A stretch of DNA of 64,000 bases from Dioscorea cayenensis subsp. rotundata (Eukaryota > Streptophyta > Magnoliopsida > Dioscoreales > Dioscoreaceae): contig NC_052487.1 of NCBI RefSeq assembly GCF_009730915.1, positions 2,728,001 through 2,792,000 of the forward strand. Reading direction: 5' to 3'. The position numbers and the translations under genes are program-made. Position 1 is the first letter of the stretch; every line of letters begins with the position of its first letter. Below, in pieces: positions 43,101 to 64,000 of the stretch. The notes under the pieces are model-generated. The model saw only the letters and a program-made list of their open reading frames with translations, had not been told where the DNA came from and searched no databases.

Positions 43101-43632
43101 AACTCAAAAGAGTCAGCAGTCCATGAATAAGTTCCATCCTACCGGCAATGTGTACTCAGTAAGCAAACTAATTGATGTGCACAAACCCATATCAGATATA
43201 GAATTGCTGCTGGACAACATTTTCTTTGATCAATCAAATGGGAACACATTTCTTCTCAACATATTAGAATCCATCCTCGAAGCTTTTGGTTCTTGCTTCA
43301 GAGAGTACGATGAACCTAATGCGGTTAGGAATTTCCTGTATGACTGCATTATGGAATGCCTGCATTCGAAAACTGGTTGCAAAGCATTGATGAGATCGTG
43401 CCAGTTCTTCAGCAGAAATCGATTGAAGACTGAAATTTTTGAAGAGATTAGAAGTTGGCAGAGCTTATCAGGGAAAAACACCGACGACATTATCGCAAAG
43501 GAAATGAGCCGATCAATTGAGAGATGGACGACATGTGAAGTCGATGCTTTTGAGACAGGCATTGAGATTCAAACTGACATCCTTCAGTTACTGGTTGATG
43601 AAGTTGTTGTTGATTTGTGCCACGGAAGCTAA
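40194..43632 (+). CDS. TRM-type (TON1-recruiting motif) protein, 912 aa, five exons
   Basis: Exons: 40194-40341, 40457-40527, 40635-42380, 42742-42871, 42989-43632; GT-AG introns and 2739 nt in total. The N-terminus (GGCVGIFFQLLDWNRRLAKK) and the KRFGGDEKMP box are typical of one TRM clade. The DUF3741 motif KTAGLVARLMGLETMP lies at about 111-126, and the long basic Ser-rich middle is probably disordered. The C-terminal DUF4378 domain (about 755-905) runs from SKLIDVHKPISDIELLLDNI to DILQLLVDEVVVDLC. TRM proteins bring TON1 and PP2A to cortical microtubules and set division plane and cell shape; that role is inferred. Upstream in-frame codons start only at GTG 40170, so the first ATG is 40194; ATG 40203 is an alternative. 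The gene is convergent with the DUF761 gene 183 bp downstream. Confidence 0.9.
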
Positions 43633-43815: not shown

Positions 43816-44253
43816 TCAAAACAATGCAGAGAGAGAATGTTGTCTCTGAATCCTCATCTCCTTGTAAAACATCTCAATGAACTTCTCAGCTCTAGTGTCC
43901 ACTGAATCTTCATCATCCTCTCCAGCAAGCTCTAATGGCTCAGGTGACTCAAAGTCCACAACATCAGCAGTCAAAGAAAAGGACTCCAAAGCACTAGAGT
44001 CAGTGAAACCAGCTCTACCACCACAGAGAAAACAAAGGAAATGAAGACTTCTCTTCTTTACAGGCACCCTTCTGGAATGCTGAAAGAGTGGAGTACTAGA
44101 AGGAGAGAACTCATACTCTCCAACATAGGCATAGTTATAATGCTTGAGAAGCCTAAAACTCTTGGGTTTCCTCACTTTGCTCATTGGAGTGATGGAATGA
44201 GCAATGAGGTCCATTGCTTTCCTTAGTATTGGAGTACTCCTCTTCTTCTGCAT
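43816..44253 (-). CDS. DUF761 family protein, 145 aa
   Basis: Intronless frame from ATG 44253 to TAG at 43818-43816. The C-terminus SVDTRAEKFIEMFYKEMRIQ then RQHS is the DUF761 signature (usually VD.RAE.FI..F...LR.QRQ). The N-terminus is basic (MQKKRSTPILRKAMDLIAHS) and an acidic patch LAGEDDEDS precedes the domain. Family members are small plant proteins, some described as cotton-fibre-expressed; biochemical function is unknown. Length and layout are normal for the family. It sits tail to tail with the TRM gene. Confidence 0.85.
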   Translation of the reverse strand: MQKKRSTPILRKAMDLIAHSITPMSKVRKPKSFRLLKHYNYAYVGEYEFSPSSTPLFQHSRRVPVKKRSLHFLCFLCGGRAGFTDSSALESFSLTADVVDFESPEPLELAGEDDEDSVDTRAEKFIEMFYKEMRIQRQHSLSALF

Positions 44254-44616
44254 GGTGGTTTTCCAATGTCTACAGAGGAAATCAATGAAGAAGCAGAGGA
44301 ATTATGGAGGATGGGGGGTTATAAGGGAGAGGTGCATGGGAGGAAGAGGTGGTGGGATTGTGGAGCTGGAAAAGGGAAAGAGGAGGTCGGTGGGTTTGTT
44401 TGTTTGTTTGCTTTTTTTTGGTTTGCTTTTTAATGGAGCGTGTATTGTTGAGAATTTTTAAATTTTTAGTAGCCGTTGCTGGTGCTATGAACAACACAAT
44501 GGCCTGGAAAACCAACCTGGCACACTACACTCTATCTGATTCATTGTTAGCCACATAATTAACACTTGCTGTACTTGGTTTCATTCTGAAATTATATATA
44601 TGTATATATGTAAATG

Positions 44617-44898
44617 TGGAAAATTATAGGGCCCAGGGCCTGGCCCGATTCCTTGAGTTTATGGGCCAAGTGGAGGGAGAATATGATTTTGTAGTCCTAC
44701 ATGAATATTGTGTGAATGAATGGATACTTTGCATGTATTATTAATTCATTATTATTAATGTGAAATATTGTGTTTGTATTTATTAATATTAATTCAATTA
44801 AGCTATATAAGGAGAGAAATTGCAAGGCATTAATTTGGGATTTAATGCATTGCATAAATGAGTGGTATATAAGAAGAGAGAAGAAAGAAGAACATGCC
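44617..44898 (+). promoter_or_regulatory. promoter module of subtype-1 neprosin genes, copy 1
   Basis: The block begins GGAAAATTATAGGGCCCAGG and runs into the coding start. It recurs before two other genes (48513-48796 and 54768-55062). It contains GCTATATAAGGA (about 44803, roughly 90 bp before ATG) and a second GGTATATAAGAAG (about 44864). The first is the likelier TATA box because it is kept in all three copies at the same distance. Confidence 0.7.
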
Positions 44899-46602
44899 AT
44901 GATTGCTAAGATGTTGAAGATGATGGTGCTAGTGTTTATATTTCTTTGCTGCCTTCTTCTTCTTCTTCTTCTCCCTAGCTTTGGTTTCACTATTGATGAG
45001 GATCTGGAGCTTCTCAACAAGCCAACAATGAAGACTACTGTAGTGGTAATTAAGTAGTTAATCATTATTAACACCAAGTAAAATTCATTTTTGTTTAGTT
45101 CTCTGATTTTCATCTTGATATATATTATCATAGGATGATGGAGATATATATGATTGTGTGGACATACACAAGCAACCAGCATTTGATCATCCATCTCTAA
45201 AGAATCATAAAATTCAGGTCCTTTATTCTTCTTCTTCTTTCTTTTACTGCTACAGTGCTACTCTTCTTTTATTATATATAAATTATATCTGCAGTTAAGG
45301 CCAAGTTCTTATCCAGTTGGACTATTTGATGATAAATCATCATCAACAAATAGTACTACATCAACAGAAATTGGATTGCCAGATGGAGGTTGCCCTTCAG
45401 GAACAGTACCAATAAGAAGACATACAAAAGAAACTCTCATGAGAATGAAATCATCTTTGAAGAACATGAACACTCCATCAATGCACAATGGTACAAATAA
45501 TGAATTGCACCATCAGGTACGTTAATCATTAAACCAAATCTTCATTAGTTTCACACTTTATATATATCAAACTCACATTGATTGCATGTATGTATGATTT
45601 CATGAAATGTTGCAGCGGGCAATATACATCACCAGAAAAACACTATCAGAATTTTATGGTGCATCAGCATTCATTGATGTTTATAGCCTTCCTTTAACCA
45701 AAACGTGGCAAGTCAGCTCAAGCTATATTTGGATAATAAACAATGAAGATGATGATCAAATAAACACTATAGCAATTGGATGGACAGTGAGTCTCAAACA
45801 GTTCATTCTCTTCTTAAATATTTCTTAGACTCATAATTGTTAAAAATCTAATCTAGTTTTACTGTCACAGGTATCTAATGAAAGCTATGGAGATACAAAA
45901 ACCAGACTAACTGCTTCTTGGACTGTATGTTTAATTATCAAATCATTAAAATTAATACATTAAGTGAAGTAACAAATTTTACTTTATATTTTTTCAGATT
46001 GATAACTTTCAAGAAACAGGATGTAGAGATACATCATGCCCAGGCTTTGTTCAAGTTAGCAGAGGACTGCCACTGGGCATTCCTATAAAACCTCTATCAA
46101 CATATGGAGGCACACAGTATGGTTTAAACATCCTTGTTTTCAAAGTAATAACACTACCTCCATTTTTATAATTATATTAGTGTTCTTAATTTTTATTTGA
46201 ATTTCAATTAATGTTATTAATTTTTAACAGGATCCAAATACTAAGAATTGGTGGTCTTTTCTTCACAATAATCGAATTCCAATAGGCTATTGGCCTAATG
46301 AAATTTTCACTAATTTGGGTGCAAAGGCTAATAAGCTTAATTTTGGAGGAATTGTTGGGTACTTGGATAGCCCGGATAAGCCACCAATGGGAAGTGGCCA
46401 TTATCCAATTGAAGGTACTAGAAAATCATGTTTTTTCAGTAATGTTAAATATGTGGACAACGAAAACATAATACATGATTTAGATTCAGAGAATGTGTTT
46501 CCCTTTTCAAGTTTAAAAGAATGTTATTATGTTGGGCCTTATTCAAAAATGGGTAGCCAACTGGGTAATATGTTCTTCTTTGGAGGTCCGGGATATTGTT
46601 AA
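44899..46602 (+). CDS. neprosin-domain (DUF239) secreted protein, gene 1 of cluster, subtype 1, 398 aa
   Basis: Exons: 44899-45045, 45134-45217, 45295-45516, 45616-45786, 45871-45924, 45998-46144, 46231-46602; all introns are GT-AG and phase 0, 1197 nt in total. A hydrophobic signal peptide ([20 protein letters not shown]) is followed by the neprosin activation-peptide region ([20 protein letters not shown], then [11 protein letters not shown] and [11 protein letters not shown]) and the neprosin domain from about residue 152. That domain includes [47 protein letters not shown] and the end FFFGGPGYC. Neprosin is a glutamic prolyl endopeptidase; the two catalytic positions, normally Glu in EAGW and GGE, read A204 (AIGW) and I316 (GGI) here. 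So proteolysis of the usual kind is unlikely. ATG 44911 is an alternative start. Confidence 0.88.
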
Positions 46603-48512
46603 AGATATTTATAATATTCGTTATGTTGTATGAGTTTTATTGAAGTTTTTAAATAAAAGATTGTTTAATTGGATATCTGGTTATGAAAGTTTTCTGTAAT
46701 TATTTTTACATATGCGACAAGTGTATGTATATTCAGAGAAAGGAGGGTGCATATAGAAAGCAATACAAATTCACCTGTATGCCTTCACCCGACCAACATA
46801 TAATTGAGTTGTAAACCCACATTAACAACTAAAGACCCTTTTGTATCATTACGCTCGGCTCATTTTTAACTTGAACGATGAAAGTCTTGCAGCCAACACT
46901 TACGTAGTGGAGTCGGTGCCATTGGCAAAGGCCTTTTGACAATTTTTTTTAATTATTCCGATTAAAGTTTTCATGGTTGTTTGCTATGGATTGAAATAAA
47001 AGTATATATGTTTAAAATAAAATTTTGAAAATGTACTTAAAATGTCACTATGTCATTGATTTTATATTTGTTTCTTGATTAAGATTGTATAAAAATTAAT
47101 CTTTAATTAATCTCATGTTGTTTAATGGGCAGCACTTGAGGTGCCAAAATATTCAAGCATAATATTTTTGTTTCACTAGTATTTTTTATTTTTGATGGCT
47201 CCACTGGTTGTTCTAGTAAAATGAAGATTTTAGTTTTAATAAAAAATTTATGATAATTTTATTTATAGGATTTATTAGATTTTTTTATATTTCTGATTAT
47301 AGAAATATAATAAATATTTAAGAGAATATTAAAGAATAAATTGTAAAAATTCCCTTTTTTTTTTTTTCTTATCAGAGTCTTGTAATTTTTAAAAATTTAC
47401 ATTCCAAATAAAGTGTATTATATTTTAAAGCAATTAAAGAAATAAACATCCCTTCATTATGTGGTTGCAGTTGGCTGGACAATATAATCTCCTTACTATG
47501 AATTTTTTATAAAATAAAATTGAAATTATATTTATAAGGAAAAAACCATCTTGAAAGAACTATTTTGCTAGAGGATTAATAGTCAAGTAGTATTAATCCC
47601 ACTGTAAAAGACATGGTATGGGACTCAAGTTCAAATCCCTTAAGAAACAATAGTGGTAACAATCTCCAATGTGAGTTCGAGCTTGCTATCTGAGCCCCAT
47701 GTTGTCAAGTGAGAACATGTTTATTGGATGAATTACAAAACATGCCACATTTATTCAAAAACCTATAAGCTTCCAAATCAGCAACATTTACTTATCCAAG
47801 CTAGATATTATCATCATTCTCTAATTAAAAAATTAAACTAATTAATAAATGTATTATGTGGTTAATTTACTTTTAAAATAGAACCATTATCCCTCGATAG
47901 TTGCATACTTGCATGGTAGGGTAGATTTATCTCTAAAATATTATTCAAGTCATCATAATTGGGGATAGTCCGTGTTTTAAAGTTGGAGATTTCATTATGT
48001 ATGATGTAATTATTTTTATTTTGAGGGGTTGATTTTATTGATTGTTAAAGATATATATATTTTGGCATTGTTGTTTTTTTAATTTTTTTTATTGTAGATT
48101 TTATTGTTTTTATTATTTTTAGATTTTTTTTAGGTTTATGTTTGGGTTCAAGTTCTGCAAATTTTTCTTTGTAAAAATCAATAAACCTAAGGAATTAGTA
48201 AATGAGTGATTTCATGAGTTTGCAAATTTTTTATTTTTGATAATTTTATCATGAAATAAATTGAAAAAATTATTGATAATTTGTTATTAAGAAATTTGGC
48301 TTTTGAATCTATGAGATAAAAAATAAATTTATCTTTACTTGAAATGGAGAGCTTTTAATAATTATTATGAAAATAGTTTGATGTGTAGGCAATGTATTCC
48401 ATTAGTATCAAATATTTTTAAAGTTGGAAAGATTATAATTTTAAGAAAACTTCACAAATTCTGAGGACATCCTAAATGACGAATTGCTTATATATATATA
48501 TATATATTAATC
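46603..48512. other. intergenic relics between neprosin genes 1 and 2
   Basis: About 46998-47315 matches the region before gene 6 (61464-61700), as a subtype-1 downstream flank. About 47785-47875 matches the upstream module of subtype-2 genes (57500-57580, 61870-61960). About 48120-48440 matches the downstream flank of subtype-2 genes (54385-54700, 61000-61310). No coding part of a subtype-2 gene lies between. A GC-richer block at 46727-46945 has no counterpart after the other subtype-1 genes, and 47575-47715 looks SINE-like (AGTTCAAATCCC). Confidence 0.65.
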
Positions 48513-48796
48513 TGGAAAATTATAGGGCCCAGGGCCTGAGCCTGGGCCCAATTCCTTGAGTTTGTGGGCCGAGTGGAGGGAGAATATGATTTTGTAGTAG
48601 CACATGAATATCATCTGAATGAATGGATGTTTTGCATGGAGTATTATGAATCCATTAATGTGACATGTTTTGTTTGCATTTATTACCATTAATTCAATGA
48701 AGCTATATAAGGACAGAAATCATAAGGCATTAATTTGGGTTTTAATGCATTGCATGAATGAGAGTGGTATAAAAAAGAGAGAAGAAAGAACTTGTC
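48513..48796 (+). promoter_or_regulatory. promoter module of subtype-1 neprosin genes, copy 2
   Basis: Same module as 44617-44898, with a longer GGGCCTGAGCCTGGGCCC stretch at the start and the TATA-like AGCTATATAAGGA near 48700, about 95 bp before the ATG. Confidence 0.7.
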
Positions 48797-49008
48797 ATGC
48801 CTGTTAAGATGTTGAAGATGATGGTGCTAGTGTTTATTTTTCTTTGTTGCCTTCTTCTTCTTCTTATTCTCCCTAGCTTTGGTTTCACCATTGATGAGGA
48901 TCTGAAGCTTTTCAACAAGCCAACAATGAAGACTAGTACTATAGTGGTAAGTAATTAATCATTATCAAGTAAAATTCATTTTTGTTTAGTTTTCTAATTT
49001 TCATCTTG

Positions 49009-49039
<31 letters not shown>

Positions 49040-50562
49040 CATAGGATGATGGAGATATATATGATTGTGTGAACATATACAAGCAACCAGCATTTGATCA
49101 TCCTTCTCTAAAGAATCATAAAATTCAGGTCCTTTCTTCTTCTTCTTCTTCTTCTTCTTCTTCTTCTTCTTCTTCTTTCTTTCTTTCTTTTACTGCTGCT
49201 CTTCTTTTATTATACATAAATTATATCTGCAGTTAAGGCCAAGTTCTTATCCAGTTGGACTATTTGATGATAAATCATCATCAACAAATAGTACTGCATC
49301 ATCAGAAATTGGATTGCCAGATGGAGGTTGTCCTTCAGGAACAGTGCCAATAAGAAGACATGCAAAAGAAAATCTCATGAGAATGAAATCATCTTTGAAG
49401 AACATGAAGATCAAGAACACTCCATCAATGCACAATGATACAAATAAAGAATTGTACCATCAGGTTAATCATTAAACCAATTCATCAGTTTCACAATTTA
49501 ATTATATACATCAAACTCACATTTATTGCATGTATGTATGATTTGATGATGTTATAGCGGGCAGTATACATCACCAGAAAAGAACTATTAGATTCATATG
49601 GTGCATCAGCATTCATTGATGTTTATAGCCTTCCTATAACCAAAGAGTCACAAGTCAGCTCAAGTGCCTATATTTGGATTGAAAACAATGAAGATGGTGA
49701 TCAAATAAACAGTATAGCAATTGGATGGACAGTGAGTCTTAATAAATAACACTTCATTCTCTTAAATATTTCCAAGAACTCATGATTGTTAAGAATCTAA
49801 TCTAGTTTTATTGTCACAGATATCTAATGACAGCTATGGAGATACAAAAACCAGACTAACTGCTTCTTGGACTGTATGTTTAAATATTATTTTTTTTATC
49901 GTACCATTAAAATTAATACATTAAGTAACAAATTTTACTTTATATTTTTCAGAATGATAACTTTCAGGTAACAGGATGTAGAGATATAACATGCCCAGGC
50001 TTTGTTCAAATTAGCAGAGAACTGCCACTGGGCATTGCTCTTAGACCTCTATCAACATATGGAGGCACACAATTTGGTTTACAAATCCTAGTTTACAAAG
50101 TAATAACACTACCTTCATTTGCATCGATCATTATATTATTTTTTCTTAATTTATGTTCAAATGCCAATTAATGTTATTAATTTGTTACAGGATCCAGTGA
50201 CTAAGAATTGGCTTCTTTTTCTTAAAAGAGACCAAATTTTTATAGGCTATTGGCCTAGTAAAATTTTCACTCGTTTGAGTTCAAAGGCTAATAAGCTTGT
50301 TTTTGGTGGAGTTGTAGGGTACTTAAATAACCAAGATAAACCACCAATGGGAAGCGGTCATTTCCCAATTGAAGGTAGGAATAAAGCATGTTTTTTCAGT
50401 AATATTAAAAATGTGGACAAACAAACCAAGATACAAGATATAGATTCAGAGATTTTGTATCCCTTTTCAAGCTCAAGAGAATGTTATTATGTTGGGCCTT
50501 ATTTAGAAACAGGTCCTGGTCTTGGTGATATGTTTTTCTTTGGAGGTCCTGGATATTGTTGA
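48797..50562 (+). CDS. neprosin-domain secreted protein, gene 2 of cluster, subtype 1, 403 aa
   Basis: Exons: 48797-48946, 49045-49128, 49233-49463, 49558-49731, 49820-49873, 49953-50099, 50191-50562; 1212 nt, all boundaries as in gene 1. The signal peptide [20 protein letters not shown] is nearly identical to gene 1. Catalytic positions read A209 (IAIGW) and V321 (FGGVV). Exon 3 is three codons longer than in gene 1 ([10 protein letters not shown]). The motif [12 protein letters not shown] and the end FFFGGPGYC are intact. Intron 1 carries a (TA)n and intron 2 a (TTC)n tract (about 49135-49176). No break is seen, so it should encode a full secreted protein. The same non-catalytic argument applies. 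Confidence 0.88.
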
Positions 50563-50799
50563 AGGTATTTGTAATAGTTGTTATGTTGTATGAGTTTTAT
50601 TTAAGTTTTTGAATAAAGGGTTGTTTGGATGTTTGGTTAGAAAAAATTTCTATAATTATTGGGATTAATTTTTAAGTGCAGGTTTGCTTTGGACTGAATA
50701 ATAAAAGTATATACATTTAAAATAAAATTTTGAAATATGTACTAAAAAATATATATTTTTTTTTAACTAAACTGGATATTTTTATGAATATCTAATTAA

Positions 50800-50945
50800 A
50801 AAATTAGACTAATTAGCAAATAAATTAGACGGTTAATTAGTTCATAAAAACAGGATAAAAATCTTACTGTTATAACTAATAATTAAATTATATATAAAAC
50901 ACACTATAAAAGGATGAAACATTACAAAACTAAAATATCATCAGG
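50800..50945 (+). promoter_or_regulatory. upstream module of subtype-2 neprosin genes, pseudogene copy
   Basis: It contains TTAGACTAATTAGCAAATAA and GGTTAATTAG.TCATAAAA, then ACACACTATAAAAGGATGAA about 35 bp before the ATG at 50946. The same block precedes the genes at 57670 and 62068, where the downstream element reads ACACACCATAGAAAG and ACACCATACTT, so the TATA match is best in this dead copy. Confidence 0.6.
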
Positions 50946-51186
50946 ATGATGAAGATGGTGCTAATATTTGTTTGCCTTCATCTCCCATCCTTTGTTCTAA
51001 GTTCAGAGCACAATCTCACCATTGATGACGACTTTGAGATTGAGAGACAACTCAATCTTCTCAACAAGCCAACCATTATATGTTCATAAATAATTAGTTA
51101 ATCATTCATTATCTTATCATTCTAATCGTTCTATTATTATTAATATTATCATTAGTACTAATCACTAGGAAAATGGGGACATCTTT

Positions 51187-51389
51187 TGTCTCCATTTTTT
51201 TTTTTGGGAAAGAGAAGCGAGGCGAACCCACTAGAGACCCAGAGACATGCACAAGCCTTGATGAAATAAATGGGGATGGGGCTGCGCTCACGTCGGCGTT
51301 AGAACCACCCATACACAACCACTATTCATAACTCTCAGAAATGTGCCCTCAGCCGAGAATCGAACTCTCACCACTCATGTCTCCATTTT
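51187..51389 (-). mobile_element. SINE insertion with 12-bp target-site duplication
   Basis: The sequence TGTCTCCATTTT stands on both sides (51187-51198 and 51378-51389). The insert reads in minus orientation: it starts with GAGAGTTCGATTCTCGG, a pol III B-box-like stretch, continues through GGTTCTAACGCCGACGTGAG and CTGGGTCTCTAGTGGGTTCG, and ends in an A-run (T-run on plus, about 51194-51205). Size about 180 bp. The poly(A) end, B box and TSD together mark a tRNA-derived SINE whose A-box end is short or lost. Confidence 0.85.
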
Positions 51390-51854
51390 ATTAAACCACC
51401 AGTTTTGGTATTCTTGAAATACCAGGGGCTCAAATATTCCCATCAAGGGATTTTGGATTGCATTAGATGATAATCTAGTCAATTATATTGTTGTTAGATG
51501 GGATAAAATATTATTATTATTATTATTTATAATTTTTTTTCTAATTATAATAAAATATTATTATTATTTATAATTTTTTTCTAATTATAATTTTTATTTT
51601 TATTTTTATTTTTTGTAAATTTAAATTAAACTCTTCAAAAAAATTTAAGACATTCATATGTGTGGTGTTATTTATTCACATTGGGGAAAAAATTAAATTA
51701 AATTGAACAATCTAAACTAGAAATATATGATCTGGAGTATTAAACCAAACAACTAGATAGGCTTCTTTCGGATTTTTTTCTTTTCTTTCATTATTGGTGT
51801 ACTATATATATATATATATATATATATGCAATCTCTCCTATCTAATCATCTATG

Positions 51855-51882
51855 AGTGTGAGTGTGAGTGTGAGTGTGAGGC
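51855..51882 (+). repeat. (GAGTGT)n short tandem repeat
   Basis: Four to five perfect GAGTGT hexamers inside intron 4 of the neprosin pseudogene. No counterpart in the related genes. Confidence 0.85.
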
Positions 51883-52466
51883 CACATTAGGAGCCAATCA
51901 TAGAGGGCACATGTATGTGTGACTACCAAAAAGACCCTAAAATATTTATTTATTTATTTTTAGAAAATAATTGGAATTCATAATTAATCTTAAAGTTTTG
52001 GAAAATAATTGAAACCAATATTTATTTTTAAATTTATTTCACCCATTTCATTATTATTATTATTATTATTATAAAAAATTTATGTCATATCAATTAAAAA
52101 AATTTACTAATTTTTCTTAAAATATTATTTATTTAAATGTTTCATTGTGTTTATAATTTTTTTTAGTTTTAATGTTGTTTTATTTGTATATAGGTAGATC
52201 CAAATATTAATGGAGATAAAAATACTAGGCTAATAACTGGTTGGACAGTAAGCTCTCTCATAATTTTTTATTTTATTTGATTTTTTTTATTTTATTCCTT
52301 AATTATTTACAAATGAAAATTTTAACCTTTTTTTAATTTTAATTTTTTTTTATTTTTAAGAATGATAGTTTTAAAAGCACATAATGTATAAACTCTGCAT
52401 GCCTGTCATTGTTCAAGTTTGCAAAGATTAATTTTCTTATTTTCTAACATATAAATATCATATTTA

Positions 52467-52511
<45 letters not shown>

Positions 52512-52965
52512 CTTCTCATTAATTTTTTTATGTAATGTAATTTGTTCTATTTATATGAAATATATTTTGATTGTTATTAATAATAAATTAAAGGATTAGT
52601 TATTTAAAAGGTCCTTGGATATTTTGATGTTCACCATTTTCTTGATGATTAATTTTTAAATTTAAAAATAATACTTAAAAGGTAGGGATATTTTGGAAAA
52701 TGAAAATATGGGAGATTCTATATCAAACTGAAATTTTTTTTCTAGAGATAAATTGTTAATTTCTTCTAATTAAATCTATTAAATTTAGAAGAAAATTAGA
52801 GCATCTCACCAACTCTTTCAATTCCCTGGAAAGTCCTTTAATTTATCAAATCCCCAAACCATCCTTAATTTTTAAAATTTTTATTTTTATATCTAAATTA
52901 AATTAAAATTACAAAATTATCTATATCTTATTCCTTCAGCTCAATTATTAAGAGTACAGATGAGA

Positions 52966-53578
52966 TAGACCTGTCAGGTTCGGGCTGGGCTTAAGCCATA
53001 ATTACTAAATTTTAAACTTGTTCAAACCCGGTCTGGCCAAAAAATCTAAGTCTTAATCCTTGCCAGAACCCGTCCAAATTTAATGATCTCTACTCAAAGC
53101 CCGCCCAAACCCACTCAAATAGGTTTGTTATCAAATAATATGTAAGTTATAAAAAAATTAACAATAATATTAATATGTAAATATGACCAAATATTATTAT
53201 ACAAAACACTTAAAAATTAAAATAACAAATATTTATTCAATTACAACAACTAAAATTCAAATCATTATAATCAATGGTAATCAACAATAAATATATATTA
53301 TGTAAATATATAGAAAACTAATTAATAAATAATCAATGGCAATTCAAACCATTATATATATAAGTATATACATACAAAATTAATTAATAAATATATTTTA
53401 TAATTTGGACCGGACGGGGTGGCCGGGCTTTTAACAATGAAAACCAAACCTAGTCCATTTTTAAAATAGGTTTCTGTTTTTTGTCCTAGGCCCGGACATC
53501 GGGTCTTATATATTTGTCTAAACTCTCCCATTTTTGCCTTCAAGTTTAGGAGGGTAACTTGGCTCTTGGACAGATCTA
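52966..53578. mobile_element. hAT-like non-autonomous DNA element, about 610 bp
   Basis: The left end TAGACCTGTCAGGTTCGGGC and the right end (reverse complement TAGATCTGTCCAAGAGCC) are imperfect inverted repeats. Inner parts are rich in CCCGGTCTGG / GGCCCGGAC words in a GC content unlike the flanks. AGTACAGA occurs just outside both ends (52953-52960, 53579-53586), as expected for an 8-bp hAT duplication, though on the left it is separated from the end by five bases. No transposase frame. It lies in intron 6 of the pseudogene and is absent from the intact gene at 57670. Confidence 0.6.
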
Positions 53579-54384
53579 AGTACAGACTAAGGCAGAAAAA
53601 ATTTCAAATAATAAAAACAAGAAAATAAATAAAAAAACCAAGATGATCATATATATCATATATATATATGATCAGAATCAGAATATAGATGAGCTTTTAA
53701 TAAATTTTGTAAAATTTGTGAATTAAAAAATCCTTCATATATATATATATATATATATATGATTAAATTTAAATCCTCTCATATATTTGAAAAAAATATT
53801 TGGTTTTTCTTTTTATATGTGACCCATAGGTTTCAGTCTCCCTTCTCTCACAATTTTTTTCATCAGCAAAGATTTCAATTTGAAACTATTTGCTTAATCA
53901 AACAAACATCTGCTAATACACTTGAGAAAAAAATTGAGCCTTGAGTAATATATTAAGCATTTTTTATAGCATCAAATGACTATAAATTGGTGGTTTTTTT
54001 ATGGTCATGATAAAAACCTAGTAGGTTATTGGTCTAATAATTTATTCACCACTTTAGCTCAATACAGTACTAGATTCGAGTTTTGCAGCACTTTATACCG
54101 AGATGCCACATTTCCTTGGATGAGAACTAGTCATTTTTCAGATAAAAATTATAGTAAGTCGCACCTATTTCAAATGGTGAAATATGCTGACCATGATTCA
54201 AAGTCAAATGATTTACCATTAATTGAGGGAACTCCAAGTTCATATAGTCCATGATATAAGAATGAAGATTTTAGTGGGTCTTATAATACTGATAATTATT
54301 TTTATTATGAGGGCATGGTGGCATTCATAATTGAAGACATTTACTCTGTAATTTTTTTATTTTTTTATTGTACTTATTATTTTT

Positions 54385-54767
54385 AGATTTTTTTTTTAGG
54401 TTTTTGTCAGCGTTCAAGTTTTACAATTTTTTTTAGTAAAAATCAATAAACTGAAGGAATTAGTGAAGGGGTGATTTCATGAGTTGCGATTTTTTATTTT
54501 TTAATAATTTGATTATATAATAAAATACAAAAAAATTTCATAACTTGTAAGTAAAAAAATATTGTTTTTGAATATATGATTAGATAAAAAATAAATTTAT
54601 CTTCATTTGAAACAGAAAGTTTTTAATAATTATTATAAAAATAGCTTGATGTGTAGGCAATGTATTCCATTAGTATTAAATATTTTAAAAGTTGAAAAGA
54701 TTTTTTTTTTTTTTGAAATTTTTATAAAATAATATCTAGATTATGAATTGGCTATATATATAAACCC
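54385..54767. repeat. downstream flank of a subtype-2 gene (cluster repeat)
   Basis: It shares GTAAAAATCAATAAAC.GAAG, GGTGATTTCATGAGTT.GC and TTGATGTGTAGGCAATGTAT with 48120-48440 and 61000-61310. Present after the pseudogene, after the intact subtype-2 gene, and once with no gene before it. Confidence 0.75.
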
Positions 54768-55062
54768 TGGAAAATTTTGGGGCCCAGAGCCTGGCCCAAT
54801 TCGTTGAGTTTGTGGGCCGAGCGGAGGGAGAAGATGATTTTGTGGTACAACATGAATATATAATGTGAATGAATGGATACTTCATACCTTGCATATATTA
54901 TTAAATTTAAATCATTAATGTGAAATATTGTGTTTGTATTTATTAATATTAATTCAATGAATCTATATAAGGACAGAAATTGCAAGGCATTAATTTGGGA
55001 TTTAATGCATTGCATAAATGAGTGGTATATAAGAAGAGAGAAGAATTAAAGAAAAACATGTC
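54768..55062 (+). promoter_or_regulatory. promoter module of subtype-1 neprosin genes, copy 3
   Basis: Third copy of the module at 44617 and 48513: GGAAAATTTTGGGGCCCAGA at the start and ATCTATATAAGGACAG near 54961, about 100 bp before the ATG. Confidence 0.7.
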
Positions 55063-56833
55063 ATGCATGCTAAGATGTTGAAGATGATGGTGCTAGTGTT
55101 TATATTTCTTTGCTGCCTTCTTCTTCTTCTTCTCCCTAGCTTTGGTTTCACCATTGATGAGGATCTGGAGCTTCTCAACAAGCCAACCATGAAGACTACT
55201 ATAGTGGTAAGTAGTTAATTAATCATTATTATAAGTAAAATTCATTTCTGTTTTGTTTTCTGATTTTCATCTTGATATATATTATCATAGGATGATGGAG
55301 ATATATATGATTGTGTAGGCATAAACAAGCAACCAGCATTTGATCATCCTTCTCTAAAGAATCATAAAATTCAGGTCCTTTCTTCATCTTCTTCTTTCTT
55401 TTACTGCTACTCTTCTTTTTTATTCTATATATATATATATATATATGTCTGCAGTTAAGGCCAAGTTCTTATCCACTTGGACTATTTGATGATAATTCAT
55501 TATCATCATCAACAAGCAGAACTACATCAATAGAAATTGGATTGCGAGATGGAGGTTGTCCTTCAGGAACAGTACCAATAAGAAGACTTACAAAGGAAAA
55601 TCTCACGAGAATGAAATTGTCTTTGAAGAGCATGAAGATCAAGAACACTCCAATGTACAATGATACAAATGAAGAATTACACCGTCAGGTCTATCATTAA
55701 ACCAAATCTTCATTAGTTTCACACTTTATATATATAAAACTCACATCGATTGTATATATATATGTATGATTTCATGATGTTATAGTGGGCATCATACATC
55801 ACCAAAGAAGAGCTATCAGAATCATACGGTTCATCAGCATTCATTGATGCTTATAGCCTTCCTTTACCCAAAGAGTGGCAATTCAGCTCAAGCTATATTT
55901 GGATAGCAAACAATGAAGATTATAATCAAATAAACACTATAGCAATTGGATGGACAGTGAGGCAATTGGATGGACAGTGAGTCTTAATAAATCACACTTC
56001 ATTCTCTTCTTATATATATATTTCTAAGAAGTCATAATTGTTAAGAATATGTAATTGTAATTCTAATTTTACTGTCACAGATATCTAACGACAGCTATGG
56101 AGATACAAAAACCAGACTAACTGCTGCTTGGACTGTATGTATAGTAATTCATTTATTTTATTTTATTTTATTTTTGAATCATTAAAATTAATACATTAAG
56201 TTAATCAACAAAATTTACTTCAATCTTTTTCAGATTGATAACTTTCAGGAAACAGGTTGTAGAGATACATCTTGTCCGGGCTTTGTACAAATTAGCAAAG
56301 AACTTCCACTGGGGGTGGTTATTCAACCTCTGTCAACATATGGAAGCACACAGTATGGTTTAAACATAGTTGTTTTCAAAGTAATAATTCTAACTCCATT
56401 ATCATAATTATAGTATTATTTTTATATTTGAATGGCCATTAATGTTATTAATTTGTAACAGGATCCAGAGAGTCAGAATTGGTGGTTTTTTCTTAAAAAA
56501 GATAAAATTCTAATAGGCTATTGGCCTAATGAAATTTTCACTCTTTTAAAAGCAAAGGCTAATCAACTTGTTTTTGGTGGAGTTGTTGGGTACTTAGATA
56601 ACCCGGATAAGCCACCAATGGGAAGTGGTCATTTCCCAATTGAAGGTACTAATAAATCATGTTATATCAGTGATATTAAAAATGTGAACGAAGAAAACAA
56701 AATACAAGATTTAAATTCAGAGAATTTGTATCCCTTTGTAAGTTCACAAAAATGCTATGATGTTGGGCCTTATTTAGAAACAGGTGGTCCTCTTGGTAAT
56801 ATGTTCTTTTTTGGAGGTCCGGGGAATTGTTGA
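55063..56833 (+). CDS. neprosin-domain secreted protein, gene 3 of cluster, subtype 1, 401 aa
   Basis: Exons: 55063-55206, 55291-55374, 55455-55688, 55786-55956, 56081-56134, 56234-56380, 56462-56833; 1206 nt, phase 0 joins. Signal peptide and activation-peptide region are as in gene 1. Exon 4 starts with TGG (WASYITKEE) where genes 1 and 2 have CGG. Catalytic positions are A207 (IAIGW) and V319 (FGGVV). The end is FFFGGPGNC. The end of exon 4 is duplicated: a 20-nt unit at 55942-55961 repeats at 55962-55981, giving two donors. Only the first (GTGAGG) keeps the frame; the second (GTGAGT) adds 20 nt and would shift it. So output may be reduced by mis-splicing. Confidence 0.85.
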
Positions 56834-56971
56834 AGATATTTGTAATATTTTTAAAGATGTATGAATTTTATTGAAGTTCTTGAATAAAGGGTTGTTCACT
56901 TGTTTGGATGTTTGAATATGGAAATTTTACTTTTTGACAAATGCCGCAAATTTTTATAATTATAATTATTT

Positions 56972-57056
56972 TTTGCTTTGTTTAAGTTAGCAAAGATACG
57001 CCTCTCCCATACAATGGCACTCAACATGGCATTTAACTCTATATTTTCATAGTAAT
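56972..57056 (+). pseudogene. fossil of exon 6 of a subtype-2 neprosin gene
   Basis: TTGCTTTGTTTAAGTTAGCA followed by AAGATACGCCTCTCC and TACAATGGCACTCAACATGG matches exon 6 of the gene at 57670 (59575-59676), with a gap of about 25 nt and altered bases near the end. It also keeps the following GTAATTTTCTTAA donor side. No other exon of this copy is recognisable around it. Confidence 0.75.
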
Positions 57057-57669
57057 TTTCTTAATTTTTTTCTTCTTTTTAATTTTTTTAATAAATATAT
57101 TTAAAAAATTTGGGTTTTTTTTTTTTTAGAGGGATGAGATTATTAAAAAAAATAATTAATTTGTAAATCTCTATGAAAAAACCAAATTACCCTTCTTCAA
57201 TTTGATAAATTACTATAATGTCTTTTTAAAAATTAATTTCATCTTTCATATTATTATTTTTTTCTCTTATTTTTTTTAATGTGTCCATTGAAGATTAATG
57301 TCTTGAGTTCATCTCAAGTTCAAGTCTCACAGACACATGTATCATAATGGATCCCCGAGGTGAGTTTGGGGCTAAAAACACTGGTTGAATGATCAATTCA
57401 TGACCTATGTGCACGACCCCTAAATAATAGTGCTGGTAGCATTTGTAAATTATATTTATATTAGAGCACAAATCAGCAAACATCAATTTATACAAGCTAG
57501 ATATTGTCATCAATCTAATTGAAAAATTAGATTAATTAGCAAATATATTAGGTAGTTAATTAGCTCCTAAAACCAGGATAAATATCTGATTGTTATAACT
57601 AATAATAAAATTATATATGAAACACACCATAGAAAGAAGAAACATTACAAAACGAAAATATCATCAGAG
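57057..57669 (+). other. upstream region of neprosin gene 4
   Basis: 57281-57450 carries CAAGTTCAAGTCTCAC, a B-box-like stretch, and could be a SINE remnant. From about 57490 the subtype-2 upstream module begins (TAGATATTGTCATCAATCTA, TTAGATTAATTAGCAAATA) and runs to the ATG at 57670. No clear TATA box; ACCATAGAAAGAAG lies about 40 bp before the ATG. Confidence 0.5.
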
Positions 57670-60600
57670 ATGACGAAGATGGTGCTAATCTTTGTTTGCC
57701 TTCTTCTCCCATGCTTTGTTCTGAGTTCAGAGCACAATCTCACCATTGATGAAGACTTTGAGATTGAGAAACAACTCAAGCTTCTCAACAAGCCAGCCAT
57801 CAAAACCATAGTGGTAAGTTTATAATTATTAATTAATCATTAATTTATCATTCTAATCACTCTATTATTATTAATATTAACATTAATACTAATAACTAGG
57901 AAAATGAAGATATCTTTGATTGTGTGGATATTAACAAGCAACCAGCTTTTGATCACCCATCTCTTAAAGATCATCAAATTCAGGTCTCTTCTTTCATTCC
58001 TCTGTTCCTTAATTCATTATAAAATAATAAACATATGTATATTTATATGATATATTTGTTTTCCTGCAGTTAAGGCCAAGTTCATTACCAGTTGGATTAT
58101 TTGATAATGATATGATTAAATCATCATCAAGAATAAAATCAATGGAAGTCGGATTGCATGAGAGTTGTCCATCAGGAACAGTACCAATAAAAAGGGTTGA
58201 AAAAGAACAACTCATTGGAATGAGATCATCTTTCAAACAATATAAGATCAGGCCCTCTTCTTCTTCTAATGTTAATGATGATGCTTCTACTACTCAGAGG
58301 GTAAATAAAATAAATTTTTATTATATCATATGATTTAATTACTATTATTATTTTGATGTGTTTATATATATTAATTAATTTTTTTAATATTGTTAATCAG
58401 TGGGCAACAATACATACTCCATATAAACCATACCACCAGTTTTGGTATTATGGTGCTTCAGGATTAATGGGTATATATGGTTTCCCTGGAATGCAAGACA
58501 CTCAATTCTCATCAAGTGGATTTTGGATTGCAAATGATGATGATCTAGGTCATATCAATCACATTGTTGTTGGATGGGCTGTGAGTTTCTTCTTCTTATT
58601 ATTCATAATTTTTTTCCTAATTATAACTGAATTTTTTTTTAATGTTTTTTTTTTAAATTTAAACTTAACACCCAGTGATTGAGAAATTAAGGTATTTAAC
58701 TCCTATGTATGAGCTTGAGAATTCTACTACCTCCTAATGCGTGATTGAGGTTTAAAATAAGATACTCAACTTGCCTGCCAAGTCCCTGGTTTTGCTATGG
58801 GTAGAGTTTAGATTTAGTTTATTTATGGAATAGTTCTATAGTTATGTGCATAGTGCTGCACGGTATATGAAACCAAACATAAAAATTTCTCTAATTCTAA
58901 AACAGGGAAGATGACTTCTAAAATAAGTATATATGTGATAGCTAGTCCATATTATAAATAATAATATATTATTATTATTATTATTATTATTATTAAAATC
59001 TAATAATAAAAAAAGAAAGGAGATGTTTTATTGTTTGGATTGGATTTGATTTTTTCCACCACAAATGTTAAAGGAACCAAATCATTAAAAATAATTTAAG
59101 ATATATTTGTTTTTACAAATAAATGTAATTCATAATTAATATCATCTATATTTAGTTTACCTATAGTTTTGGAAAGTAAATGAAACCTATATTAATTTTT
59201 ATATTTATTTCAAAATATTTCAAAATTTAGTATTATTATTATTATTATAAAATTTGTGTCATATCAATAAGATATTTAATATTTTTCTTCTTAAAATACT
59301 ATTTATTTAAATGCTTAATTGCGTTTATTATTATTATTATTATTATTATTTTAGTTTTAATGTTGTTTTATTTGTCTATAGGTAGATCCAAAATATAATG
59401 GAGATAAAAATAGCAGGTTAATGGCTGGTTGGACAGTAAGCTCTCTCATCACTTTTTTTTATTTTATTTTCTTGATTTTTTAAAAATGATAAATTTAACA
59501 TTGTTATTTTAATAATAATTGTTTTTTAGTGTGATGATTTTAAAAGCACCGGATGTATGAACAATGCATGTCCTGGTTTTGTTCAAGTTAGCAAAGATAC
59601 ACCTCTTGGTATTGCTATCAGTCCTGTTTCCACATACAATGGCACTCAGCGTGACATTGAACTTTTTGTTTTCAGAGTAATTTTCTTAATCTTTTCTCCT
59701 TTTTATTTTTCTCAATAAATATATATCATATTATTATTATTATTTCTCATTAATTTTTCTAATATGATGTAATTGTTCTATTTATATAAAATTTATTATG
59801 ATTGTTAGAAATAATAAGTTGAAGGATTAGTTATTTAAAAGTACTTGGGTGTTTTCACGTTCACCATTTTTCTTGGTGATTTGTAAATTTTAAAAATAAC
59901 ACTATAAAAGTAGGGACATTTTTGAAAAGTGAAATTTTATAGAGATAAAATTCGTGGTTTCTTCTACATTCAATTTATTAAAATTAAGAAGATAGTAACA
60001 AGTAGTCCCTCCAACTCCTTCAATTCCTTAAAAAACCCTTTAAGTTTATCAAATCCCTAGAACATCCTTAATTTTTAAAATTTTTTACTTTTAAATTCAA
60101 ATTAATTTATAACATTACCCTTACCTTATTCTTCACCTATTAAAATGTTAAGAGCACATAAGTGGATAGGAAAAATTCTAAAGGACTAAAACTTACATAA
60201 GAAGGCAAAGGGACTATATGATTAGAATGAAAAATATATTAAAAAAAGTTTATTAATTTTTTTTAATTTATAAATTCAATAGTGCTATATATACATGATT
60301 AAATTTAAACTCTGTCATGTATTTGAAAAAATACTTTTTTTTCGTAGACGACCTATTGGGAGCTATATAAAGGAGAACAATAGGTTTTTTTCCACGATAA
60401 TTTCAATTTGAAACTACTTACTTAAGTGCACCAAACCAATATTGATTGTAGATTTGAATTCACAAACACTTACTTTAGCAAACCAAACTTCTGTTGATAT
60501 ATTTGAAAAAAAAATATTTAAGGGTTGAGTAATATAATTAAACATTTTTTTTTTACAGGATCCAACGACTTTAAATTGGTGGTTTCTTTGTGGACCTGAT

Positions 60601-60930
60601 AAAAAATTAGTAGGTTATTGGCCAAATGATCTTTTTACCACCTTAGCTCAATATGGTACTAGACTTGAATTTGGTGGCACTGCTGAATATATTGGCAACT
60701 CAGTATTTCCGCCAATGGGAAGTGGACATTTTCCATATGAAGGTTATAGTAAGTCATGCCTGTTTCAAAAAGTGAAATACATTGATGGTGATTCACGGTC
60801 AGATGATTTACCATTACTTGAGGGAACTCCACGTTCAGATAGTCCATGTTATAAAGCTGGAGATTTTACTGGGTCTGATAATGCAAATAATTATTTTTAT
60901 TTTGGGGGACCTGGTGGCATTGATTGTTGA
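57670..60930 (+). CDS. neprosin-domain secreted protein, gene 4 of cluster, subtype 2, 403 aa
   Basis: Exons: 57670-57813, 57900-57983, 58070-58300, 58401-58580, 59382-59435, 59530-59676, 60559-60930; 1212 nt. Exon boundaries match subtype 1, but introns 4 (801 bp) and 6 (882 bp) are long. Signal peptide MTKMVLIFVCLLLPCFVLSS, then EHNLTIDEDFEIEKQ, activation-peptide region [20 protein letters not shown], and the neprosin domain with [53 protein letters not shown] and the end FYFGGPGGIDC. Catalytic positions read V209 (IVVGW) and T321 (FGGTAEY); E323, two residues on, is the only nearby acid. It is the one intact subtype-2 gene in the window. Confidence 0.88.
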
Positions 60931-62067
60931 CAAGCTCTAGCCTATTTGTATTGTTACTTATTTTTATTATTATGGTGTTTATTGTTTTTATTATTATTAT
61001 TATTTTTTAATGTTTTTGTTTGAGTTCAAGTTCTCAATTTCTTAAAAAAAACAATAAAATGAAAGAATTAGTAAATGGGTTATTTCATGAGTTTGCAATT
61101 TTTTTTTTTTTGTTAATTTGATTATAGAATAAATTGCAGAAATTCTTGACAACTTGTAATTAAGAAATAAGGTTTTTGAATGTATGAGATAAAAAATAAT
61201 TTTATCTTCACTTGAAATAGAAAGTGTTTTATAATTATTATAAGAATAGTTTGATGTGTAGGCAATGTATTCCATTAATATTAAATATTTTAAAAGTTTG
61301 AAAGATTATTTTTTGAAATTTTTATTACAAATAAATGATGAATAATATATAGATACATATGCAAGGATTTATTCTTGAAAGGAGAAAAAAATAAATTAGT
61401 TACAAAATTGGTTTTAATTGTGTTTGATTTCAATTTTTCTTGAAAACATAACAAAATTTAAAATAGAAGTATATATATAAATTAAAATTTTGAAATATGT
61501 ACTTAAAAAGGTCACAATGTGATTATTTCTTGACTAAGATTATATAAAAACTAAACTTTAATTAAGCTCAAAATTTTTTTTTGGTGGGCCTGCTGTTTGT
61601 TCTAGTAAAGTACAATTTTTGTTTTTAATAAAAATAAATGATAATTTTATTTATAGAATTTATAAGAATTTTCTGTTTCTGATTCTAAAAATATAATAAG
61701 CATTTATCATATTATTTTATTTTCTATAAATATAATCATAAAATAAAATTTTTAATTTTATATTTATCATAAAATAAAAAGGCATTGTGAAGGTAATTAA
61801 CAGTTAATCATTAACTCCCAAATCAATCAATCAGAAAACAATATGTTGTTTTCTGATTAGCTTGATATTATCCTCAATCTCTAATTGATATTATCATCAA
61901 TCTCTAATTAAAATATTAGACTAATTAGCAAATAAATCAGGTGGTTAATTAGCTCATAAAAGCAGGATAAAATCTCATTGTTATAACTAATAATAATAAA
62001 ATGAAATTGTATAAAACAGACACCATACTTAAAAAAGAGAAAAACACTACAAAACTAAGTATCAGAG
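60931..62067. other. intergenic relics between neprosin genes 4 and 6
   Basis: 61000-61310 is the subtype-2 downstream flank. 61440-61700 matches the subtype-1 downstream flank (46998-47315, 50690-50745), although no subtype-1 gene precedes it. 61850-62067 is the subtype-2 upstream module with an internal doubling of GATATTATC.TCAATCTCTAAT. No coding exon is visible. Confidence 0.65.
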
Positions 62068-63547
62068 ATGATCATGAAGGTGGTGGTAATCTTTATTTCT
62101 CTTCTTCTCCCAAGCTTTATTCTAAGTTCAGAGCACAATCTTACCATTGATGAAGACTTTGAGATTGAGAAACTACTCAAGCTTCTCAACAAGCCAGCCA
62201 TCAAAACCATAGTGGTATGTTTACAATTAATTAATTAATCATTCATTATCTTATCATTCATATCACTTTATTATTATTAATATTAACATTAATACTAATC
62301 ACTAGGAAAATGGAGATATCTTTGATTGTGTGGACATTAACAAGCAACCAGCATTTGATCACCCATCTCTCAAAGGTCATCAAATTCAGGTCTTTTTTCA
62401 TTCCTCTGCTCCTTAATTCAATATATAATAATAAACATATGTATATTTATATGATGTATTTGTTTCAATGCAGTTAAGGCCAAGCTCATTACCAGTTGGA
62501 TTATGTGATAATGATAAGATTAAATCATCATCAGGAATTAATTCAATGGAAATTGGATTGCAAGAGAGCTGTCCATCAGGAACAGTACCAATAAAAAGAC
62601 TTCAAAAAGAAGATCTCATTGGTATGAGATCATCTTTCAAACAATATAAGATCAGGCCCTCTTCTTCTAATGTTAATGATGATGCTTCCAATCAGAGGGT
62701 AAATAAAATAAATATTTATTGTATAATATGATTTCATTGTTATTATTATTTTGATGTGTTTATATATTAATTACTTTATTATTTTTTTAATGTTTTTGAT
62801 GATTAGTGGGCAACAATGCATACTCCATTAAGACCAGAGTATCAGCACTGGTATTTTGGTGCTTCAGGATATGTGGGTGTATATGGTTTTTCTGAAATGC
62901 TAGAGACTCAAGGCTCATCAAGTGTTTTTTGGATTGCAAATGATGATGATATCAATAAATCCAATAATATTGTTGTGGGATGGCGTGTAAGCTTATTATT
63001 ATTATTATTATTATTATTTATTCATGATTTTTTTTTCCTAATTAAAATTATAATTTTTTAATTGTTTTTTATAAAGTTAAATCAACCCTGCAATGAACTA
63101 GTTATATATGAGGTCGTAAGTTCGACTTTTTAGCTCCCAATGTGTAGTAGGATTTAAAATAAGTATGTGGCTCGTCTACATTGTCAAATATATATATATA
63201 TATATAATCAACAATTTAAATTTTAAAATATGGTTTAGAGTACTAAAATAGACAACTATAAAGATTATAAATGTTTTATTGTTTTGATTGAATTTGATTT
63301 TTTTTTAATGTCACTTTAAAAAAAATAAAATAAAATGTTTATTTTATTTTTACAAATGATTGGAATTCATAATTAATATGATCTATATTTAGTTATTTAA
63401 AGTTTTGGAAAACAATTGAAAACTTATTTATTTCTAAATTTATTTCAAAACATTTCAAAATTTATTATATAATAACAAGTCTATGTCATATTATTTAAAA
63501 TATTTAATAATTTTTTCTTAAAATATTGTTTCTTTAAATGCTTTTAT

Positions 63548-63588
<41 letters not shown>

Positions 63589-64000
63589 AGTTTTAGTGTT
63601 GTGTTATTTGCATATAGGTACATCCAACAAATAATGGAGATAAAAATACCAGGCTAGTGGCTGGATTTTGGACAGTGACGCTCTCATCATATTTTAATTT
63701 TTTATTTTATATATTTTTATTTTGTTGAATTAATTAAATATGAAAATTTTAACATTTTATATAATAGAATGATAATTTTCATGCAGGATGTATAAAACTC
63801 ATGCATGCTGCTTTGTCAAGTTAGCAAAGATATACCTCTTGACATTATTATCAGCCCTGTTTCCACATACAATGGTGCTCAATATACCATTGAACTCTAT
63901 GTTTTCAGAGTAATTTTCTTACTCTATATATAATTAATGTTTATCTTTATATTTATTATTATTATTGCTTCTCATTATATAGCTGTTTTTATAAAATGTA
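62068..64000 (+). pseudogene. neprosin-domain gene, subtype 2, frame lost in exon 6, runs off the window
   Basis: Exons seen: 62068-62214, 62306-62389, 62474-62698, 62807-62986, 63618-63674, 63768-63909; exon 7 lies beyond the window. Exons 1-4 are open and close to the gene at 57670: [55 protein letters not shown]. Exon 5 has one extra codon (GFWT for GWT) and a weaker GTGACG donor. Exon 6 is 142 nt instead of 147; the loss near 63800-63820 removes the second Cys of TGC...C and leads to a TAG in frame. So it is probably a recent pseudogene, or a truncated protein of about 265 residues. The position of the first catalytic Glu reads V (IVVGW). Confidence 0.75.
63546..63588. repeat. (ATT)n microsatellite in intron 4
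   Basis: About 14 ATT units. Similar (ATT)n runs lie at the same intron position in the related gene (59327-59351), so the tract predates the duplication. Another long run is at about 52469-52510 in the pseudogene. Confidence 0.85.

Follow-up and report, generated by a model that had tools for sequence, protein, structure and literature searches.

A 64,000-nucleotide stretch of the Dioscorea cayenensis subsp. rotundata genome (hereafter the window, C17:2728001-2792000 in an assembly of 584,211,761 bases and 2249 contigs) contains a tandem cluster of neprosin-domain genes, W1 to W5, and in W1 to W4 both glutamates of the neprosin catalytic pair, E188 and E297, are replaced. The initial annotation of the window had regarded a cluster made up entirely of such proteins as notable. 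The cluster turns out not to be exceptional, since the loss of the glutamate dyad marks a genome-wide clade found on several contigs; one of the five genes is dead. The dyad-less branch outnumbers the true enzymes in this genome, and sequence comparison moves the emphasis from a special cluster to what appears to be an old, large clade. We consider it probable that catalysis was lost once, and that the descendants of that event went on as secreted, non-cutting and presumably binding proteins.

Replacement of neprosin catalytic residues in the window genes

Gene models for W1 to W4 were produced by spliced protein-to-genome alignment with a purpose-written aligner, and each has seven exons, phase-0 introns bounded by GT-AG, and an uninterrupted reading frame coding for 398-403 amino acids. 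When W1 and W4 were scanned whole against Pfam, PF03080 and PF14365 scored 217.7 and 97.9 bits in W1 and 211.3 and 79.8 bits in W4, with cut-offs of 22 and 39.2 bits; because the PF03080 scores far exceed the cut-off, a chance match is of no concern. HMMER alignment of W1 to the crystallised neprosin chains 9qr8, 7zu8 and 7zvb (best E-value 5.4e-56) covers nearly the whole chain and places A204 on E188 and I316 on E297, as the initial annotation had proposed, and the spacing of 112 residues that it gave for W1 is also correct. The numbering of the reference chain was checked (E188 and E297, 109 residues apart), and its residues match the neprosin paper (PMC9343461) except at 206, which is F in the chain and Y in the text. 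When W3 exon 7 was aligned alone, V319 fell on E297. Misalignment of sites 188 and 297 was ruled out by the clear alignment to the crystal chain.

The spliced models and sequence likewise bear out the reported motifs, i.e., AIGW in W1 to W3 and VVGW in W4 and W5 at the first site, and GGI, GGV, GGV and GGT in W1 to W4, respectively, at the second. At sites 173, 175, 188 and 297, the alignment to crystallised neprosin reads Y-W-A-I in W1, Y-W-A-V in W2 and W3, and G-W-V-T in W4, so that three of the four residues essential in neprosin are missing (E188, E297 and Q173) and only W175 remains. According to passages of the neprosin paper (PMC9343461), E188Q, E297Q, Q173A and W175A each render the enzyme inactive (Q173A totally), H134A, Y136A and Y214A each remove about 80% of activity, and no intact mature protein was obtained for E188A or E297A. 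Y136 does not appear to be kept in W1 to W4 either, within a linker that aligns poorly at H134, Y136 and K118. Because Q173 is lost too, the observation is stronger than first stated, and the pseudo-enzyme reading gains support: by alignment, W1 to W4 would be classed as pseudoenzymes, that is, enzyme homologues without the catalytic residues. By analogy with the neprosin mutants, neprosin-type catalysis is very probably absent in the dyad-less proteins.

Other features of the fold are retained. The six cysteines of the three neprosin disulfides, with pairs taken from the neprosin paper (PMC9343461), are kept in W1 to W4 (C57/C110, C235/C240 and C373/C398 in W1), and the activation domain and MGSGH motif described in the initial annotation are also present; the signal peptide it listed was judged by eye, from a hydrophobic N-terminus in W1 to W4. 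W1 to W4 are full length, as it had stated, whereas the gene at 62068 (W5) is a pseudogene, and the clean splice sites it described stand for W1, W2 and W4 but not wholly for W3, which has a duplicated exon-4 donor. A Pro-Ser in the linker of W1, W2 and W4, found by eye, was considered as a post-proline processing site, but it is not shared by all relatives and was abandoned.

Dyad-less models across the genome

A search of the genome with the PF03080 profile returned 88 exon-level matches, and 42 stretches (20 + 10 + 12, one being the tail of W5) were taken for modelling. Eight weak PF03080 places were left out (C17:5445508, C18:23839522, C15:9314071, C19:22585421, C12:7370542, C1:26234453, C1:13479822 and C1:13473542). 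Models were counted when sites 188 and 297 were both readable and the last 244 residues held no stop or frameshift, which gave 24 models: 15 without the pair (W1-W4, L014, L017-L024, L027 and L031), five with glutamate at both sites (E/E; L009-L013) and four with glutamate at 188 and aspartate at 297 (E/D; L025, L028, L032 and L034). A loss specific to the window cluster is ruled out by this table. Several models have doubtful upstream exons, and L031 begins inside exon 4. L030, L033 and L035, with V, Y and Y at site 297, were not counted, site 188 being absent from their models; L015 and L016 are interrupted, yet were included in the trees.

Many broken relatives lie within the dyad-less clade. 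In none of the remaining broken copies is glutamate found at 297 where that site is readable; the broken copy L026 has D at 297 and S at 188, and L048 and L049 are fragments of E/E-like type. A further group from this clade, on the minus strand, lies about 160 kb onward at C17:2949400-2988900, with L016, L018, L022 and L023 assigned by the trees and L030 joining by exon 7 only.

Phylogeny

The paralogues of this one genome supplied the rates and, together with Nepenthes neprosin and bacterial rows, the trees. In a tree of 27 rows, all 17 dyad-less rows fall on one side of a branch with 100/99 support. The branch persists when a gammaproteobacterial outgroup (L051) is added, and it again receives 100/99 in a third tree, built without 17 cleft and signature columns and with L053 as an additional bacterial row. 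As all three trees show a single clade, repeated independent loss of the dyad in this genome is not favoured. The E/D paralogues form a clade of their own (100/100), grouping of the E/E rows lacks firm support (46% of bootstrap replicates in the third tree), and Nepenthes neprosin lies outside the dyad-less clade without a settled place among the E/E rows. E/E is likely the ancestral state, because both bacterial proteins keep E188, E297, Q173 and W175; at sites 168, 311 and 312, L051 reads E, T and D, and L053 reads V, G and E.

L051 (895-2214) encodes a neprosin homologue of 439 amino acids in a gammaproteobacterial metagenome-assembled genome, and L053 is an open frame of 282 amino acids in a genome of the same family. 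Two peptide patterns run against bacterial and archaeal genomes yielded one relative among 65 candidate stretches. A family search matched one of the 398 sampled genomes of the phylum of L051, namely the seed genome itself, and two of the 15 genomes of its family, seed included. No relative was found in viral contigs (0 of 25 pattern matches).

Signature residues and conservation of the cleft

Q168, P311 and P312 are present in every dyad-less row (17 of 17: W1-W4 plus 13 others, all without E188 and without E or D at 297) and in 0 of 11 E/E and E/D rows, and no other column passes this test. The same column test on the 17 rows found no new invariant acid, His, Ser, Cys or nucleophile in the clade; nor did the alignments reveal a new conserved glutamate at the active site, which would have spoken against the initial annotation. 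Among the broken copies, L036, L039, L040, L043 and L044 depart from the signature at 312, and L026 departs at 168, 297 and 312.

We then compared fourteen cleft and catalytic residues named in the neprosin paper (PMC9343461) with the remaining columns, leaving out the poorly aligned H134, Y136 and K118. In the seven E/E rows, bacterial and Nepenthes proteins included, identity is 0.88 in the cleft and 0.56 elsewhere (permutation value 0.0002), and with the E/D rows added it is 0.63 and 0.49 (0.066). The dyad-less pattern is the reverse: 0.23 in the cleft and 0.45 elsewhere over the 17 rows (0.0026 for a value as low), 0.33 and 0.53 in the W clade (0.014), and 0.44 and 0.65 in the C1-type clade (0.010). 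Because sites 188 and 297 define the classes, the comparison was repeated without them. It gave 0.86 and 0.56 for E/E (0.0020), 0.90 and 0.68 for the five E/E rows of this genome (0.014), 0.79 and 0.67 for E/D (0.14), 0.25 and 0.45 for the dyad-less rows (0.0068, and the same in the 15 uninterrupted rows), 0.33 and 0.53 for the W clade (0.024), and 0.49 and 0.65 for the C1-type clade (0.048). The result is thus not due only to the two defining sites.

Substitution rates and frame retention

Ratios of nonsynonymous to synonymous substitution rates (dN/dS) were calculated by the Nei-Gojobori method for 21 chosen pairs over whole models. They are 0.12 and 0.10 for E/E pairs, 0.22, 0.13 and 0.15 for E/D pairs, and 0.33-0.54 for 13 dyad-less pairs, the intervals of which lie below 1; within the window, W1-W2 gives 0.86 (0.61-1.31), W1-W3 0.72 (0.50-1.13) and W2-W3 0.59 (0.44-0.91). 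Since dS in the E/E and E/D pairs is high (1.0-1.9) and some upstream exons are doubtful, the 21 pairs were recounted on the last 225 codons. Here, E/E pairs give 0.06 and 0.06, E/D pairs 0.19, 0.19 and 0.14, and dyad-less pairs 0.32-0.50 (0.32-0.46 at a matched dS of 1.0-1.4), with W1-W2 at 0.82 and W1-W3 at 0.69 above that range. The recount rules out the doubtful upstream exons as the source of the contrast. The E/D clade, on C5 and C17, is under stronger constraint than the dyad-less clade and may represent a peptidase variant with a Glu/Asp pair, judging from its sequence; one member, L032, has T at 175.

By exon, the ratio of the proportions of nonsynonymous and synonymous differences among W1 to W3 reaches 1.22 in exon 4, the exon of site 188, against 0.40-0.95 in the remaining exons. 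Their introns are 14-18% diverged, close to dS, and differences in exon length preserve the frame. The tree of W1 to W3 carries about 208 substitutions (pairwise counts summed and halved), and as 4.2-4.6% of random changes form stops, about nine stops would be expected. None is present and dN/dS is raised; the frames are therefore kept while the sequence changes fast. The initial annotation had proposed selection on the fold and a dN/dS comparison across paralogues. The three disulfides and open frames agree with the former, the sequence constraint on W1 to W3 is weak (0.59-0.86 over whole models, where the interval includes 1 for two of the three pairs), and the latter gives 0.32-0.82 for dyad-less pairs over the domain.

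Probing the Pfam profile for both kinds of protein

The PF03080 profile was probed with single changes in the L012 domain (288.6 bits). At site 297 the costs are 1.8 bits for E297V, 2.0 for E297D, 2.1 for E297T, 1.9 for E297R, 3.1 for E297I and 4.1 for E297W; at site 188 they are 1.8 for E188A, 1.4 for E188S, 2.0 for E188T, 2.7 for E188V, 3.1 for E188I, 0.2 for E188Q and 4.2 for E188W. Q173A costs 2.2, Q173Y 2.8 and W175T 3.2. Structural controls are mostly dearer (D200V 5.3, D212V 4.3, G296V 7.4, G190V 5.1, C219V 7.0 and M313V 4.7, with T210V at only 2.7). Changes towards the dyad-less signature increase the score (E168Q by 0.7, T311P by 1.1, Q312P by 0.4 and all three by 2.2), while the controls T311V and E168V cost 3.2 and 2.2. 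With background frequencies taken into account, Q and E come out roughly equally frequent at site 168 of the profile, and at sites 311 and 312 P occurs up to two times as often as T or Q. Both kinds thus seem to be well represented in the profile, and dyad-less-type proteins in other plants are therefore indirectly indicated. Separately, the near equality of Q and Glu at 188 leaves room for a Q188 subgroup, which may exist and would resemble the Gln/Glu pair of eqolysins.

Interpretation and alternatives

We propose that the window genes belong to one old plant neprosin clade in which catalysis would have been lost once, ahead of an expansion by tandem and dispersed duplication with birth and death of genes. 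The encoded proteins consist of a hydrophobic leader, an activation domain and a beta-sandwich domain. With both the Glu pair and Q173 missing, they would be expected neither to cut peptides in the manner of neprosin nor to mature themselves, and they would probably remain in the apoplast as the full-length pro-form, or be clipped there in trans. The former substrate cleft, released from catalysis, now varies more quickly than the remainder of the domain, a pattern consistent with a binding surface retuned or diversified for a ligand, a peptide, a partner enzyme or a pathogen molecule.

Several points weigh against this proposal. The trees and rates come from the paralogues of a single genome. 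The retained W175 and overall fold would be compatible with other chemistry, and a simple relaxation of constraint with no binding role would likewise agree with the raised dN/dS and the variable cleft. In two of three W1 to W3 pairs, dN/dS is not confidently below 1. When site 173 is set aside along with 188 and 297, the cleft result stays at 0.0024 for E/E rows but weakens to 0.016 for dyad-less rows, 0.041 for the W clade and 0.066 for the C1-type clade. The W3 donor is doubtful, W5 is dead and the activation domain of L018 is interrupted by a stop. By analogy with E188A and E297A of neprosin, Ala at 188 in W1 to W3 may also signal poor stability. The Pfam profile suggests that the dyad-less type is common in other plants, but its weights are smoothed and its support indirect, and Glu is the best-scoring of the letters tried at both 188 and 297.

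That the dyad-less proteins are still enzymes, through a relocated or different active site, other hydrolase chemistry, W175 or the cysteines C219/C224, strikes us as very unlikely. W175 is indeed kept in W1 to W4, and C255 and C260 of Arabidopsis LOTR1, which we match to C219/C224 by spacing, are needed for complementation in the passages of PMC8794472; however, C219/C224 form a disulfide in neprosin and are invariant in 28 of 28 rows, the column test passes only Q168, P311 and P312 and picks out no acid, His, Ser or Cys as a novel invariant residue, and the cleft residues are more variable than the rest. Decay is harder to dismiss, above all for W1 to W3, for which slow decay is possible: a relaxation of selection once function was lost, in duplicates whose frames are intact mainly through youth, would agree with the W1 to W3 ratios, with introns nearly as diverged as dS, with the many broken relatives and with a table of families rich in pseudogenes across Arabidopsis accessions, which gives a DUF239 row of 34, 48 and 0.708, taken as 34 of 48 loci, the Glu pair not being typed there (PMC3521719). 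Yet the expected stops and frame-breaking exon changes are missing from W1 to W3, the 13 deeper dyad-less pairs are constrained, and 15 uninterrupted domains persist in the clade on long branches, so as a general explanation we hold decay to be unlikely. A role as regulators of active paralogues, acting as competitors, inhibitors or decoys through binding of substrate or of E/E proteins, overlaps our proposal and is, as a separate account, slightly less likely again. It draws on the two domains shared with E/E paralogues (W1, W4 and L013 were scanned) and on the trans-activation of neprosin; against it, the subsite-shaping residues 171, 206, 208, 220 and partly 169 are changed, which makes binding of neprosin substrates doubtful, and neprosin behaves as a monomer (both neprosin properties from passages of PMC9343461).

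In this genome, Q168, P311 and P312 separate the two kinds, which would let annotators split the neprosin-domain family, and the clade offers a test case for the evolution of a peptidase groove after loss of catalysis. A further step, to a plant-wide secreted recognition family with a groove disarmed once and then hypervariable in ligand binding, for instance at pollen-pistil or plant-pathogen contacts, is tentative and on balance doubtful. A recognition role would be worth testing: passages of PMC3266888, where the Glu pair is not typed, report an enrichment of DUF239 genes, which may or may not be of the dyad-less kind, among Arabidopsis central-cell genes, along with those for defensin-like and SI-S1-like proteins.

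Gene models, remnants and neighbouring frames

Coordinates are collected in Table 1. W3 has two exon-4 donors, of which the model takes the first (GTGAGG); the second (GTGAGT) leads to an early stop. Exon 7 of W5 (L046), past the window end, has many frameshifts and one stop. TATATAA lies at -95 (W1), -93 (W2) and -99 (W3) from the start codons, where further TATATAA-like matches are also present; the same search found no such element upstream of W4. The adjoining open frames at 40635-43632 (+), with Pfam matches to VARLMGL and DUF4378, and 43816-44301 (-), matching DUF761, have no evident link to the cluster.

Table 1. Features of the neprosin-domain cluster, in window positions.
Feature	Position	Strand	Details
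W1 dyad-less neprosin gene	44899..46602	+	exons 44899-45045, 45134-45217, 45295-45516, 45616-45786, 45871-45924, 45998-46144, 46231-46602; codons A204 at 45772 (site 188), I316 at 46351 (site 297)
W2 dyad-less neprosin gene	48797..50562	+	exons 48797-48946, 49045-49128, 49233-49463, 49558-49731, 49820-49873, 49953-50099, 50191-50562; codons A209 at 49717, V321 at 50311
W3 dyad-less neprosin gene	55063..56833	+	exons 55063-55206, 55291-55374, 55455-55688, 55786-55956, 56081-56134, 56234-56380, 56462-56833; codons A207 at 55942, V319 at 56582
W4 dyad-less neprosin gene	57670..60930	+	exons 57670-57813, 57900-57983, 58070-58300, 58401-58580, 59382-59435, 59530-59676, 60559-60930; codons V209 at 58566, T321 at 60679
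W5 pseudogene, same clade	62068..64000	+	site 188 = V; frame broken in exon 6 (63768-63909)
Exon-1 remnant of broken copy	50937..51041	+	W4-type by eye
Exon-5-like remnant	52194..52247	+	by eye; followed by degraded exon-6-like stretch, ~52361-52430
Exon-7 remnant	53979..54314	+	in-frame stop; CST where the GGE motif would sit
Perfect 20-nucleotide tandem duplication	55942..55981	+	copies 55942-55961 and 55962-55981, over the W3 exon-4 donor
TATA-like element, W1	44803..44812	+	ctatataagg
TATA-like element, W2	48703..48712	+	ctatataagg
TATA-like element, W3	54963..54972	+	ctatataagg

Comparison with known systems

Pseudoenzymes as a class have lost catalytic residues and kept the fold. The window proteins likewise combine lost residues with a kept fold, and differ from the class in having no functional partner known. 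Among the titles and abstract openings listed by the searches, none described neprosin relatives without the Glu pair, although a 2022 in-silico paper on the pair may hold one, and the five signature peptides had no match in the literature texts searched.

In Arabidopsis, the HOLO family (LOTR1 and 42 other proteins) has the same two-domain pair as the window proteins. According to passages of PMC8794472, neprosin-domain genes are numerous in plants, with 43 in Arabidopsis, and are often annotated as peptidases; of the Arabidopsis proteins, 34 have predicted signal peptides and eight are encoded in consecutive loci on chromosome 4; LOTR1 is called a putative protease in passages that do not discuss the Glu pair, and it was detected solely at full length and is functional as such. 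A DUF239 transfer-DNA line, in which downstream mRNA could still be amplified, had no nematode phenotype in the part of PMC6430479 consulted.

The closest comparisons are within the family. Within this genome, the E/E paralogues L009-L013 share family and domains with the window proteins (domain scan of L013) and differ by a kept cleft and, in the two pairs compared, a domain dN/dS of 0.06. The E/D paralogues also have a changed letter at site 297, but this is D, and they keep E188, Q173, E168 and T311. Nepenthes neprosin, a glutamic prolyl endopeptidase (PDB 7zu8, 7zva, 7zvb, 7zvc and 9qr8), has in common with the window proteins an activation domain and beta-sandwich, three disulfides, W175 and the GW, GYWP and MGSGH motifs. 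In contrast to neprosin, the window proteins have E188, E297, Q173 and Y208 replaced, and carry Q168, P311 and P312 in place of D168, T311 and Q312.

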